Positions 29,536 to 53,701 of a DNA stretch of 60,705 nucleotides are shown here, piece after piece; the stretch's first letter is position 1, and every line of letters starts with the position of its first letter. This DNA is from Bacillota bacterium (lineage in GTDB: Bacteria; Bacillota; Clostridia; Oscillospirales; Oscillospiraceae). The position numbers and the translations under genes were made by a program. The notes under the pieces were generated by a model. It was not told where the DNA came from. It saw nothing but the letters and a program-made list of their open reading frames with translations, and searched no databases. The stretch covers positions 1-60,705 of the forward strand of contig JAQXVF010000047.1 in the NCBI GenBank assembly GCA_029224785.1, in the 5' to 3' direction.

Positions 29536-29928
29536 AATGATCAATTCCTTTCTGATAAAGCACACAATGAGATTCTGTAACCATATCTATTTAACCATAA
29601 CATAACATATTTTCCTATAATGCGAAAGGGACAAATTATCTAAAATGCAATACCGGTTTTCGTTGTTTTGCACAAATGATCGAAGAGAAATTGGAAAAAC
29701 CACGGAAAATATGTCAAATTCTGGATGATAACAGTACAATTTGCGGCTCGCTTTTTTGTACAGTCTTTCCCAAATGCCTTCCTGCCGCCCGAACCGGGAA
29801 AGCAAGCGCTTTCCCGACGGAAAACACCCCGGTCTGATACCGGAGTTTTCGGCGGAAGGAGAGGAAAAACCGGGTTTTGCGGGACTGGTTTTCGTCTATT
29901 CTAACGCGGAAGCCGGTGTGCGTCAAGG
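29536..29928. other. Intergenic region between divergent glgB and mgtE
   Basis: AT-rich near glgB, with no convincing -35/-10 pair that I could fix for glgB (TATGTT and AATATG are candidate -10 boxes around 29595-29615). A hairpin CGGGAAAGC / GCTTTCCCG at 29795-29816 has a 4-nt loop; it loosely resembles a CcpA-like half-site pair but the spacing is wrong. No gene seen. Confidence 0.5.
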
Positions 29929-29957
29929 TTGACAATCCGGAGATGGGATACTATAAT
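29929..29957 (+). promoter_or_regulatory. Consensus promoter of the mgtE transcription unit
   Basis: TTGACA (29929-29934), 17 nt, TATAAT (29952-29957): exact consensus with ideal spacing. The expected transcript starts near 29964, giving a leader of about 160 nt before mgtE. Confidence 0.9.
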
Positions 29958-29992
29958 ATATTTACTTTTCAGCAAAAAAAGGAGGGAATCTG

Positions 29993-30067
29993 ATGGACAC
30001 CGGCGACAGTGGCAATATACCTGGACGAAGTAGCACGTTAGCGGTGTCCGGGTTGGACTCCGTGTGA
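29993..30067 (+). CDS. Putative 24-residue leader peptide upstream of mgtE
   Basis: ATG preceded by a perfect GGAGG 7 nt away; reads MDTGDSGNIPGRSSTLAVSG plus LDSV, then TGA. It is the first translatable ORF of the transcript. It uses ATA, CGA, AGT and TTA codons that the GC-rich neighbours largely avoid. An acidic start followed by Pro recalls Mg-sensing leader peptides of proteobacterial mgtA/mgtC, but there is no sequence similarity to them. It may instead be incidental to the RNA structure it lies in. Confidence 0.55.
   Translation: MDTGDSGNIPGRSSTLAVSGLDSV
29995..30049 (+). promoter_or_regulatory. Candidate structured RNA element in the mgtE leader
   Basis: GGACACCG (29995-30002) pairs perfectly with CGGTGTCC (30042-30049), enclosing 39 nt. 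The stem contains the last base of the leader ORF start codon. A second possible GGAC/GTCC pairing follows around 30055-30073. No U-run terminator is seen before mgtE, so any control would be at translation or through RNA stability. I could not match it to the M-box or other Mg riboswitch from memory. Confidence 0.5.
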
Positions 30068-30122
30068 TTGTCCGTGTTGTTGCTTCCGAAATCGAATCAA
30101 AAAACGAATAGGAGGAAAACAA

Positions 30123-31502
30123 ATGGCAGAAAGATTTGAAATTGTTGAAAAAGCGCTGATCCGGATGCTGGACGAGAAAAAGTATGTGACTCTGCGGGAC
30201 ATTCTTGTGACCATGAACCCCAGTGACATCGCCCAGATGTTCTCCGGACTGAATGAAGAACGCATTCCGCTGATGTTCCGGCTCCTGACCAAGGAACAGG
30301 CAGCGGAGACCTTTGTGGAAATGGATCCGGATGCCCAGGAGCTGCTGATCCGGGGTTTTTCCGACAGCGAGCTGAAGGCTGTGGTAGACGAGCTGTATGT
30401 GGATGACGCGGTGGAGCTGGTGGAGGAAATGCCGGCCAATGTGGTCAAGAGGATCCTGAAGCAGACCGATCCGGAGATGCGGTCCTCCATCAACATGATC
30501 CTGCGGTATCCCGAGAATTCCGCCGGATCCATTATGACCACGGAGTATGTCTCCCTCCGGCCGTCCATGACCGTGGATGAGGCCATCCTGCGGATCCGCC
30601 GGCAGGGTGTGGACAAGGAGACCATCTATACCTGTTACGTCACCGATGAGAACAAGGGCCTGATCGGTCTGGTTACGGTGAAGGATCTGCTTCTGGCGGA
30701 GGATGGAGATACACCCATCCAGGACCTGATGATCACCAACCTGATCTCGGTTACTGCACAGACCGACCAGGAAGAAGTGGCCAAGATGCTCAGCAAGTAT
30801 AACTTCCTGGCGTTGCCTGTGGTGGACGGGGAGAACCGCATGGTGGGCATCGTTACCTTCGATGACGCCATGGACGTTATGATCGATGAGGCCACCGAGG
30901 ATATGGAACTGATGAGCGGCTTGATGCCCTCGGAGAAATCCTACATCAAGAGCACTCCCATTGACCTGTTCCGAAACCGGATCCCCTGGCTGTTGCTTTT
31001 GATGGTGTCCGCCACCTTTACCGGGCTGATCATCACCGCCTTTGAGGATGCACTGGCGGCCCAGGTGGCCCTGACGGCGTTTATCCCCATGCTGATGGAT
31101 ACCGGCGGAAATTCCGGCTCTCAGGCTTCCGTTACGGTGATCCGCTCCATCAGCCTGGGAGAGCTGAAGAGCTCCGACCTGCTGAAGGTCATCCGCAAAG
31201 AGCTTTGCACTGCGGTGCTGTGCGGCGTGACGCTGGCGGCGGCCTGCTTTTGCAAAATCATGCTGGTGGACCGTCTGATGATGGGACAAGCCGAGGTGAC
31301 GGCTCTGGTGGCGGCGGTGGTGTGCATGGCTCTGGGAATTACCGTGGTGATGGCGAAGATGGTTGGCTGTACTTTGCCGATCCTTGCCAAGGCGCTGAAT
31401 TTCGATCCGGCGGTGATGGCAAGCCCCTTTATCACCACCATTGTGGATGCCTTGTCCCTGCTCGCCTTCTTTACTCTGGCAAAGGTGATTCTGAAGATCT
31501 GA
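30123..31502 (+). CDS. mgtE: Magnesium transporter MgtE
   Basis: 459 residues. Mg2+ channel of the cytoplasmic membrane. Order: an N-terminal superhelical domain (about 1-130, with LVTMNPSDIAQMFSGL), a CBS pair (about 130-255, including YPENSAGSIMTTEYVSLRP), a connecting helix, and five membrane helices with the selectivity signature MLMDTGGNSGSQA. AGGAGG precedes the ATG. The cytosolic domains close the pore when Mg is high (family knowledge). The leader upstream suggests extra control of synthesis. Confidence 0.97.
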   Translation: MAERFEIVEKALIRMLDEKKYVTLRDILVTMNPSDIAQMFSGLNEERIPLMFRLLTKEQAAETFVEMDPDAQELLIRGFSDSELKAVVDELYVDDAVELVEEMPANVVKRILKQTDPEMRSSINMILRYPENSAGSIMTTEYVSLRPSMTVDEAILRIRRQGVDKETIYTCYVTDENKGLIGLVTVKDLLLAEDGDTPIQDLMITNLISVTAQTDQEEVAKMLSKYNFLALPVVDGENRMVGIVTFDDAMDVMIDEATEDMELMSGLMPSEKSYIKSTPIDLFRNRIPWLLLLMVSATFTGLIITAFEDALAAQVALTAFIPMLMDTGGNSGSQASVTVIRSISLGELKSSDLLKVIRKELCTAVLCGVTLAAACFCKIMLVDRLMMGQAEVTALVAAVVCMALGITVVMAKMVGCTLPILAKALNFDPAVMASPFITTIVDALSLLAFFTLAKVILKI

Positions 31503-31512
31503 CAGAAAGCGC

Positions 31513-31545
31513 TGAGCGTGCCGAAAGCACTTTTCGGCACGCTCA
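31513..31545 (+). terminator. Long hairpin after mgtE
   Basis: Fourteen-bp stem TGAGCGTGCCGAAA / TTTCGGCACGCTCA with a short loop, but no T run. It is followed directly by AAAGGAGG of the next gene. A processing or partial termination element is as likely as a true terminator. Confidence 0.5.
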
Positions 31546-31565
31546 GGTCATGAAAGGAGGATATC

Positions 31566-31931
31566 ATGGATTGTGACCGCAACTGCGGAAACTGCGGAGG
31601 CTGCGGCGGCCGGGAGCTGACCCTTTCGGAGGAGGAAATCCGGGTGCTGCGAACCTTCGGGGAATTCCCGTTCCAGCCTGTGGCACGGAAAGCAGGGGAG
31701 CAGACACCGGTCTGCCGGGAGCACACCTTCTTCCCGGAGACTTTTTTGGGCAGCATCCTGCTGCTGTTGGAGAAAAAGGGCCTGATTGCCCTGGATTATG
31801 ACATGGCCCTGGGGGGCTTTTCCTACGAAGCGTATCCGGATCTTTCCGTGCGGGGCAGCATGGCACTGACCGGACGGGGACAGGATGTGCTGGACCTTTT
31901 GGAGATCAACGGCGCATCCCCGGAGGAATAA
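31566..31931 (+). CDS. Hypothetical protein with N-terminal Cys cluster and winged-helix-like body
   Basis: 121 residues. The N-terminus MDCDRNCGNCGGCGG has cysteines at 3, 7, 10 and 13, a pattern able to hold Zn or an Fe-S cluster. Residues 20-115 look like a small alpha/beta winged-helix fold (EEIRVLRTFGEFPFQP, then LLEKKGLIALDYD, then LTGRGQDVLDLLE). No family recognised with certainty. AAAGGAGG lies 6 nt before the ATG. Located 63 nt after mgtE with a hairpin between, so it may be read from the mgtE promoter. A sensor or regulator is possible but speculative. Confidence 0.75.
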   Translation: MDCDRNCGNCGGCGGRELTLSEEEIRVLRTFGEFPFQPVARKAGEQTPVCREHTFFPETFLGSILLLLEKKGLIALDYDMALGGFSYEAYPDLSVRGSMALTGRGQDVLDLLEINGASPEE

Positions 31932-53624: not shown

Positions 53625-53701
53625 CCGGGTGTGGCGAAGTTTGGTATCGCGCTTGAATGGGGTTCAAGAGGCCGCTGGTTCGAATCCAGTCACTCGGACC
53701 A
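53625..53701 (+). tRNA. tRNA-Pro (anticodon GGG)
   Basis: Full cloverleaf: acceptor CCGGGTG/CACTCGG (one G-U pair), D stem GCGA/TCGC, anticodon stem CTTGA/TCAAG with loop ATGGGGT (anticodon GGG), T stem GCTGG/CCAGT with TTCGAAT loop, discriminator A and encoded CCA at 53699-53701. Reads Pro codons CCC/CCU. Confidence 0.95.

Follow-up and report, generated by a model that had tools for sequence, protein, structure and literature searches.

This study suggests that a tiny conserved gene stands before mgtE, the gene of a Mg2+ transporter, in a range of Clostridia, and that its translation appears to decide which of two competing folds the leader RNA adopts and hence whether the transporter is synthesized. 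The window, that is, the whole stretch of 60,705 nucleotides analysed here (contig JAQXVF010000047.1 of a Bacillota bacterium in the Oscillospiraceae), carries one such leader, whose features are collected in Table 1. Taken as a whole, we consider it probable that the leader is an RNA switch under the control of translation, with a translated and conserved leader peptide at its centre.

Table 1. The mgtE leader of the window: features, positions in the window and their basis
Feature	Position	Strand	Basis or remark
Promoter TTGACA-17-TATAAT	29929-29957	+	Promoter scan, 12/12 consensus
Inverted repeat GTCAAnnTTGAC enclosing the -35 box of the mgtE promoter		+	Repeat found in 44 of 70 unique leaders
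Shine-Dalgarno AGGAGG of the leader ORF	29980-29985	+	Sequence; purine-rich site at equivalent position in relatives
Helix C, 5' arm (leader ribosome site and start codon)	29981-30002	+	Predicted fold, swap tests
Leader ORF, 24 codons, peptide MDTGDSGNIPGRSSTLAVSGLDSV, TGA stop	29993-30067	+	Sequence and comparison
Conserved ORF core GGCAATATACCTGGACGAAGTAG, coding GNIPGRS; includes helix A 5' arm (30011-30028)	30011-30033	+	
Invariant rare Arg codon CGA, codon 12	30026-30028	+	Codon counts across leaders
Hairpin P2, a competitor of helix C over the variable 3' end of the ORF	30034-30066	+	Shuffle and swap tests
Helix C, 3' arm (3' half of the leader ORF)	30042-30061	+	Predicted fold, swap tests
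Helix A, 3' arm (post-stop strand), partner 30011-30028	30068-30084	+	Shuffle, swap and partner-change tests
Helix B, 5' arm, overlapping helix A 3' arm	30077-30094	+	Swap tests
Helix B, 3' arm, over the mgtE Shine-Dalgarno AGGAGG (30110-30115)	30105-30122	+	Swap tests
mgtE, Mg2+ transporter gene	30123-31502	+	TIGR00400 and Pfam domains

The initial annotation of this DNA had pointed to an exact-consensus promoter, a perfect ribosome site and a 24-codon ORF rich in rare codons before mgtE, and our analysis bears out all of these. Three promoter-like sites lie between 29000 and 32500, against 1.9 (sd 1.5) in shuffled sequences, and only the one before mgtE is perfect; within the 46 ORFs of the window, ATA makes up 4.9% of Ile codons, CGA 4.8% of Arg codons and AGT 6.1% of Ser codons. 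The MgtE protein scores 454.8 bits with the TIGR00400 mgtE model (cut-off 232.75) and contains the Pfam domains MgtE_N, CBS and MgtE, and the source genome holds a single mgtE match at E up to 1e-60. As had also been stated, the terminator scan found no terminator-like site on the plus strand between the promoter and mgtE, and an intrinsic terminator was therefore rejected as a candidate. A known RNA family was rejected likewise: the leader has no gathering-score match in Rfam 15, the sole such hit in the window being a tRNA at 53625, and the best sub-threshold match in the leader, osmY, reaches 17.7 bits against a cut-off of 46.9. The M-box model RF00380, which scores 81-112 bits on nine relatives, is blank on the window at gathering score and in 29850-30200 at E up to 10, in agreement with the earlier statement that no M-box is recognisable there. 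A further promoter-like site faces the opposite way, from 29926 to 29898, scores 10/12 and shares the -35 box of the mgtE promoter; both sites are present in 43 of 70 leaders, and the inverted repeat round this box is possibly an operator or a symmetric promoter pair. The divergent neighbour in the window is glgB, yet it appears in none of the 61 named stretches with the core pattern. On the other side of mgtE, a strong 15-bp hairpin lies right behind the gene (31512-31546), where the scan calls a terminator on the minus strand, and it is followed by a small ORF of 121 amino acids (31566-31931) with a Cys-rich start, MDCDRNCGNCGGCGG, and without a Pfam match.

Sequence comparison supports the view that the leader ORF is under coding selection. 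When the spacer of the search pattern is left free, all 16 matches upstream of mgtE are in frame, at four lengths (35, 38, 41 and 44), against 10 of 43 other matches in that frame elsewhere. The start codon is ATG in 65, GTG in 3 and TTG in 2 of the 70 unique core-pattern leaders, and ATG in 44, GTG in 5 and TTG in 1 of a second set of 50 leaders from other genera, families and orders; in the latter, Asp2 is encoded by GAC or GAT, and Ala3 and Gly4 by all four of their synonymous codons. Because the frame is kept, start codons interchange and synonymous codons vary, the ORF is not incidental, and that candidate was rejected. The peptides are 20-38 amino acids long and follow the pattern MD-A-G-S/G-S...G-R-S. 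An acidic residue stands at position 2 in 119 of 120 peptides, while a second one at position 4 or 5 occurs in only seven of the 120, including that of the window (Asp2, Asp5); MgtQ and MgtL, by contrast, depend on two, which speaks against the Mg2+ reading proposed below. The G-R pair, mostly with S next, is kept behind a stretch that varies between genera, and the 3' third of the peptide shows no conservation. The Arg codon of this pair is CGA in all 68 core-pattern leaders with GR, a count that the pattern itself favours, and also in 34 of 34 leaders with GR among the 39 found via mgtE alone; the other 11 of the 50 came from a pattern containing CGAAGT and are excluded from this codon count. 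The codon that follows CGA in these 34 loci is AGT in 22, AGA in four, GAA in two, TTA in two and TCT, ACC, CGG or CGC in one each.

The leader ORF is found before mgtE in the window's own genus and beyond it. In the own genus, the core was matched with up to three mismatches in 93 of 136 genomes, a count that includes chance matches and in which many genomes are incomplete. Upstream of mgtE lie 106 of the 110 core-pattern matches, these loci being redundant and comprising 70 unique leaders, one of which (L124) is from another family of the order; of the remaining four matches, L032 and L045 have no start codon, and L074 and L075 are cut at the end of the stretch. The core pattern is also present in 61 stretches of named contigs from metagenome-assembled genomes, two of them from Candidatus Faecousia, and one leader peptide is identical between an own-genus genome (L033) and Candidatus Faecousia faecipullorum (L061). 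In the family sample mgtE was found in 108 of 150 genomes. The 29 best family loci besides the window carry the ORF in 27 cases, that is, 26 of 27 from other genera and one of two from the own genus, the exception being L128; among 40 further loci, chosen going down the ranking and covering part of it, 14 have the ORF and 26 lack it. In the class sample mgtE was found in 86 of 148 genomes, and in the 29 best loci the ORF is clear in nine and doubtful in one (L254), being absent from 19 or 20, against a shuffled mean of 0.97 with a maximum of 4 and none on the reverse strand. Both the family and the class lists hold best matches only. A stricter pattern places the ORF ahead of mgtE in further families of the order as well and, beyond the order, in four loci that belong to three families. 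A pattern scan of the phylum matched 26 of 299 genomes, that of the window included, and tblastn showed no mgtE at the 19 new loci examined. Many distant mgtE genes have no leader ORF. In one locus (L161, from 1500 onward on the reverse strand), which is among the 16 in-frame matches, the leader ORF MDAGGSKRTVPGRSS is some 740 bases away from the mgtE gene that follows it, compared with the usual 100-250, and therefore something lies between the two. No report of a leader peptide of clostridial mgtE was found among the matches listed from the open-licence PMC literature.

Our comparison also supports the proposal that the leader RNA can form four helices, C, P2, A and B, of which A and B would be mutually exclusive because both use the post-stop strand; P2 and helix C both draw on the 3' part of the ORF. 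An 8-bp stem closing on the start codon, 29995-30002 with 30042-30049, had been noted before; this pairing is exact and lies inside the longer predicted helix C. Helices A and B, the parts of the proposed switch, do not figure in the initial annotation. The folding energy of the window leader is ordinary (z -0.28, with 72 of 200 shuffles folding equally well or better), so the window sequence alone could not reveal the importance of the stem, which comes out in the comparison of relatives. Against shuffled partners, tested on 63 of the 70 unique leaders (L012, L049, L063, L085, L089, L106 and L124 being left out as long, oddly laid out or remote), helix A has a mean z of -4.27 (61 leaders below -2, one above 0), helix C -2.47 (42 below -2), P2 -2.23 (35 below -2) and helix B, the weakest, -1.74 (22 below -2, five above 0). 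A swap test compared, over 2000 permutations, the pairing of each arm to its own partner and to that of another leader. Among 62 leaders (the same exclusions plus L011), the z scores are -7.3 for A, -9.7 for B, -10.0 for C and -13.2 for P2, none of the 2000 permutations being as low, and four control pairings give +1.4, -1.4, +0.1 and +1.5. In the set of 50, which leaves out L184 and L188 (no mgtE ribosome site located by the script), L224 (no usable ORF) and L131 and L132 (ORFs present but outside the pattern), the scores are -8.7 for A, -7.5 for B and -13.5 for C, again with 0 of 2000 permutations each, and the controls give +2.6, +0.1, -0.2 and -0.2. These permutation counts are not to be read as probabilities, because related leaders are not independent; the control pairings share the same relatedness.

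The partners of helix A change together between groups, GGCAAU going with an AUUGCC-type strand and GGCACA with UGUGYC. The downstream strand is of the AUUGCC type in 42 and of the UGUGCC type in five of the 63 core-pattern leaders; among 20 other leaders with GGNACA it is of the UGUGYC type in 10 and of the AUUGCC type in none. The own partner is seen 41 and 10 times, against shuffled means of 7.3 and 1.8. At positions -1 to -4, helix C shows several Watson-Crick types in other genera, in a register chosen by energy. Three leaders (L063, L085 and L089) share an insert of about 140 bases, located between the post-stop strand and the mgtE ribosome site; it falls within the helix B loop and spares both arms of this helix, CCTCTTATT and AATAATAGGAGG. 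The initial annotation had left a choice between a peptide ORF acting through translation-dependent folding and a structured RNA with an incidental ORF. Neither of the outcomes named there as refuting its proposal came about: the leader has no Rfam hit, and stem and peptide are both conserved in related genomes. The conservation of peptide, frame and start codon together with a start-codon stem that co-varies across genera argues for the former choice; indels that keep the frame, the exchange of one start codon for another and synonymous changes speak against the latter.

How a ribosome on the leader may affect the mgtE ribosome site was examined with an occupancy model based on secondary structure alone and a simple footprint, with neither kinetics nor an A/C pseudoknot. 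For 61 core-pattern leaders (the swap-test exclusions plus L056), the mean cost of opening the mgtE ribosome site is 5.03 kcal/mol in the free RNA; a ribosome at the leader start lowers it by 1.1 to 3.93, opening being easier in 37 leaders and harder in seven. The cost is maximal, 8.6-8.8 kcal/mol, with the ribosome at the Arg codon or one codon before; with the core covered, opening costs 3.5 kcal/mol more and is harder in 54 of the 61 leaders. With the ribosome at the stop codon the cost is 6.72. In the 50 other leaders the corresponding means are 5.14 (free), 5.70 (start), 8.14-8.33 (Arg) and 5.39 (stop) kcal/mol; a ribosome at the Arg codon makes opening harder in 36-37 of these leaders, and one at the start changes the mean by +0.56 (easier in 22, harder in 24). 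The model thus predicts that a start-bound ribosome opens the mgtE site in the core-pattern set but not, on average, in the other 50. When only the start region is masked, the mean opening cost falls in both sets. In the window itself the costs are 5.48 (free), 3.22 (start), 7.68 (Arg) and 4.13 (stop) kcal/mol, so that a stop-bound ribosome opens the window leader, whereas by the mean it closes the core-pattern leaders.

From the model we propose that, when no ribosome is on the leader, helices C and B would form and mgtE would be off. A ribosome detained at the start of the leader ORF would break helix C, allow P2 and A to form and free the mgtE ribosome site, while one that has advanced into the core, especially to the invariant rare CGA, would cover the arm of helix A, let helix B form and switch mgtE off again. 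By analogy with known systems, low Mg2+ may halt or dislodge ribosomes within the first few codons, where residue 2 is acidic as in MgtL and MgtQ, and so turn mgtE on; in ample Mg2+ the ribosomes would get to CGA, and mgtE would be off. We prefer this switch by ribosome position, with early failure as on and arrival at CGA as off, because its outline matches that of mgtQ-mgtB and residue 2 is acidic. The initial annotation had suggested an unrecognised Mg-responsive leader: the comparison supports a translation-dependent leader without an Rfam hit, the ORF is presumably translated, and a Mg2+ response, with low Mg2+ as the cause of early ribosome failure, may be expected from the identity of the gene and from known systems.

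Several other readings of these leaders have to be weighed. The peptide itself may arrest the ribosome: in the presence of Mg2+ or some other signal, MDAGSS...GRS would stall it at GRS and keep it on the core, whereupon helix B would close mgtE. That G-R, mostly with S, is kept after a variable stretch, that CGA is invariant where ribosome occupancy shuts the mgtE site most, and that the C-terminal part of the peptide is unconserved would all suit such an arrest, which we nevertheless regard as unlikely: the stretch from the N-terminus to GR differs from genus to genus, which would be unusual for an arrest peptide, and it is the codon that is fixed, beyond the mere residue, which suggests decoding or the RNA. 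The fixed codon could instead make the leader a sensor of translation capacity or of arginine tRNA, in which CGA gauges decoding by its Arg tRNA independently of Mg2+. The presence of CGA in 34 of 34 loci speaks for this, but a single codon makes a weak amino-acid sensor, we know of no link between mgtE and arginine, and the M-box tandems described below argue that Mg2+ is the signal for these mgtE genes; we hold this reading to be very unlikely. Rho-dependent transcription control, with leader translation exposing or hiding a Rho site, has been reported for the mgtA and corA leaders (PMC11552253) and would agree with the lack of an intrinsic terminator in our leader; a co-varying helix B over the mgtE ribosome site fits translational control, and we give the Rho reading a small chance.

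A riboswitch that binds a ligand or Mg2+, with the ORF incidental, would account for the highly conserved core nucleotides and the alternative helices, but it has to face the 16 of 16 in-frame matches, the interchange of start codons, the synonymous variation in codons 2-4 and the lack of an Rfam match, and is highly improbable. Finally, the peptide may be the Mg2+ sensor itself, its N-terminus, MD-A/T-G-G/S-N/S-S/N-G, being a miniature of the conserved MDTGGNSG in the membrane domain of MgtE, such that the nascent chain or its ribosome reads Mg2+ during a pause at CGA, through much of the class and in tandem with or, in some lineages, instead of the M-box. The peptide start (29993-30016) does resemble the MgtE segment (31095-31118): for three consensus 8-mers MgtE scores above all 386 other proteins compared, and for 63 of 67 distinct leader 8-mers the best match within MgtE is this segment, while reversed 8-mers never rank MgtE first. 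Taken singly, however, leader 8-mers rank MgtE first in only one of 30 core-pattern and 16 of 37 other cases, and for most single leaders other proteins do equally well. In the solved MgtE structure 2yvx the aligned segment reads LGTGGNTG and therefore lacks the Asp. The resemblance, a case weakened by the single-leader ranks, is retained for the sensor-peptide reading only, a reading to which we give a very slim chance.

mgtE is otherwise known for riboswitch control. Our Rfam scans for the M-box covered 40 family loci, 20 further loci and 20 class loci and, among the core-pattern leaders, the window only; RF00380 precedes mgtE in nine of the relatives scanned. Four of these (L200, L201, L215 and L153, in the last at 1037-1266) have the M-box, the leader ORF and mgtE in tandem, and in L153, L200 and L215 a terminator-like hairpin with a T-run was seen by eye between the M-box and the ORF; the other five (L199, L210, L212, L222 and L226) carry an M-box but no leader ORF. 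Because the M-box comes first and the ORF second in the tandems, and the ORF occurs with or without the M-box, the leader ORF is a layer separate from the M-box. It would represent an unreported layer of magnesium control, adjoining the known riboswitch in some species, and apparently a separate case of leader-ORF control, acting on mgtE in several families within and beyond the order of the window. With relatives that have the M-box alone, the M-box and the ORF, or the ORF alone, an exchange between riboswitch and ribosome control becomes directly testable. The CGA codon, fixed across genera among variable neighbouring codons, offers a handle on codon-specific pausing or RNA constraint in regulation.

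Among known leaders of Mg2+ transporter genes, our leaders share with the leader-ORF attenuators a short ORF with a ribosome site directly before the transporter gene and, as judged from comparison and energy only, exclusive folds that overlap the ORF, one of which hides the control site. Such control is reported for enterobacterial mgtA and corA (PMC11552253, PMC11282234) and for mgtB (PMC8092293). For MgtL of mgtA and CorL of corA, these papers describe, as we propose here, leader translation that is inverse to transporter expression, and early acidic and proline residues in MgtL; they differ by Rho-dependent termination and by other peptides, genes and phylum, the apparent target here being the mgtE ribosome site (PMC11552253, PMC11282234). 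The SRC-65-1 motif, a riboswitch candidate reported only from Thioalkalivibrio, is also a structured RNA ahead of mgtE, one in which a stem takes in the ribosome site and start codon of this gene; the text consulted makes no mention of a leader ORF (PMC11109978). The closest system in its working is MgtQ of Salmonella, although homology is not evident and the peptides, judged by appearance, look unrelated. Asp2 and Glu5 of MgtQ are proposed to cause early failure of the ribosomes, by which the ribosome site of mgtB is set free (PMC8092293). The likeness to our leaders lies in a short ORF before a Mg2+ transporter gene, an acidic second codon (Asp2 and Asp5 in the window peptide against Asp2 and Glu5), exclusive stem-loops of which one hides the transporter ribosome site, and an open state favoured by a ribosome retained at the ORF start (PMC8092293). 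MgtQ, as described there, has 8 amino acids and lies between mgtC and mgtB within an operon of enterobacteria, before the gene of a P-type ATPase (PMC8092293). Unlike MgtQ, the leader ORFs described here encode 20-38 amino acids, have in the window a promoter of their own, precede the gene of MgtE in Clostridia, and combine a fixed CGA codon with four predicted helices.
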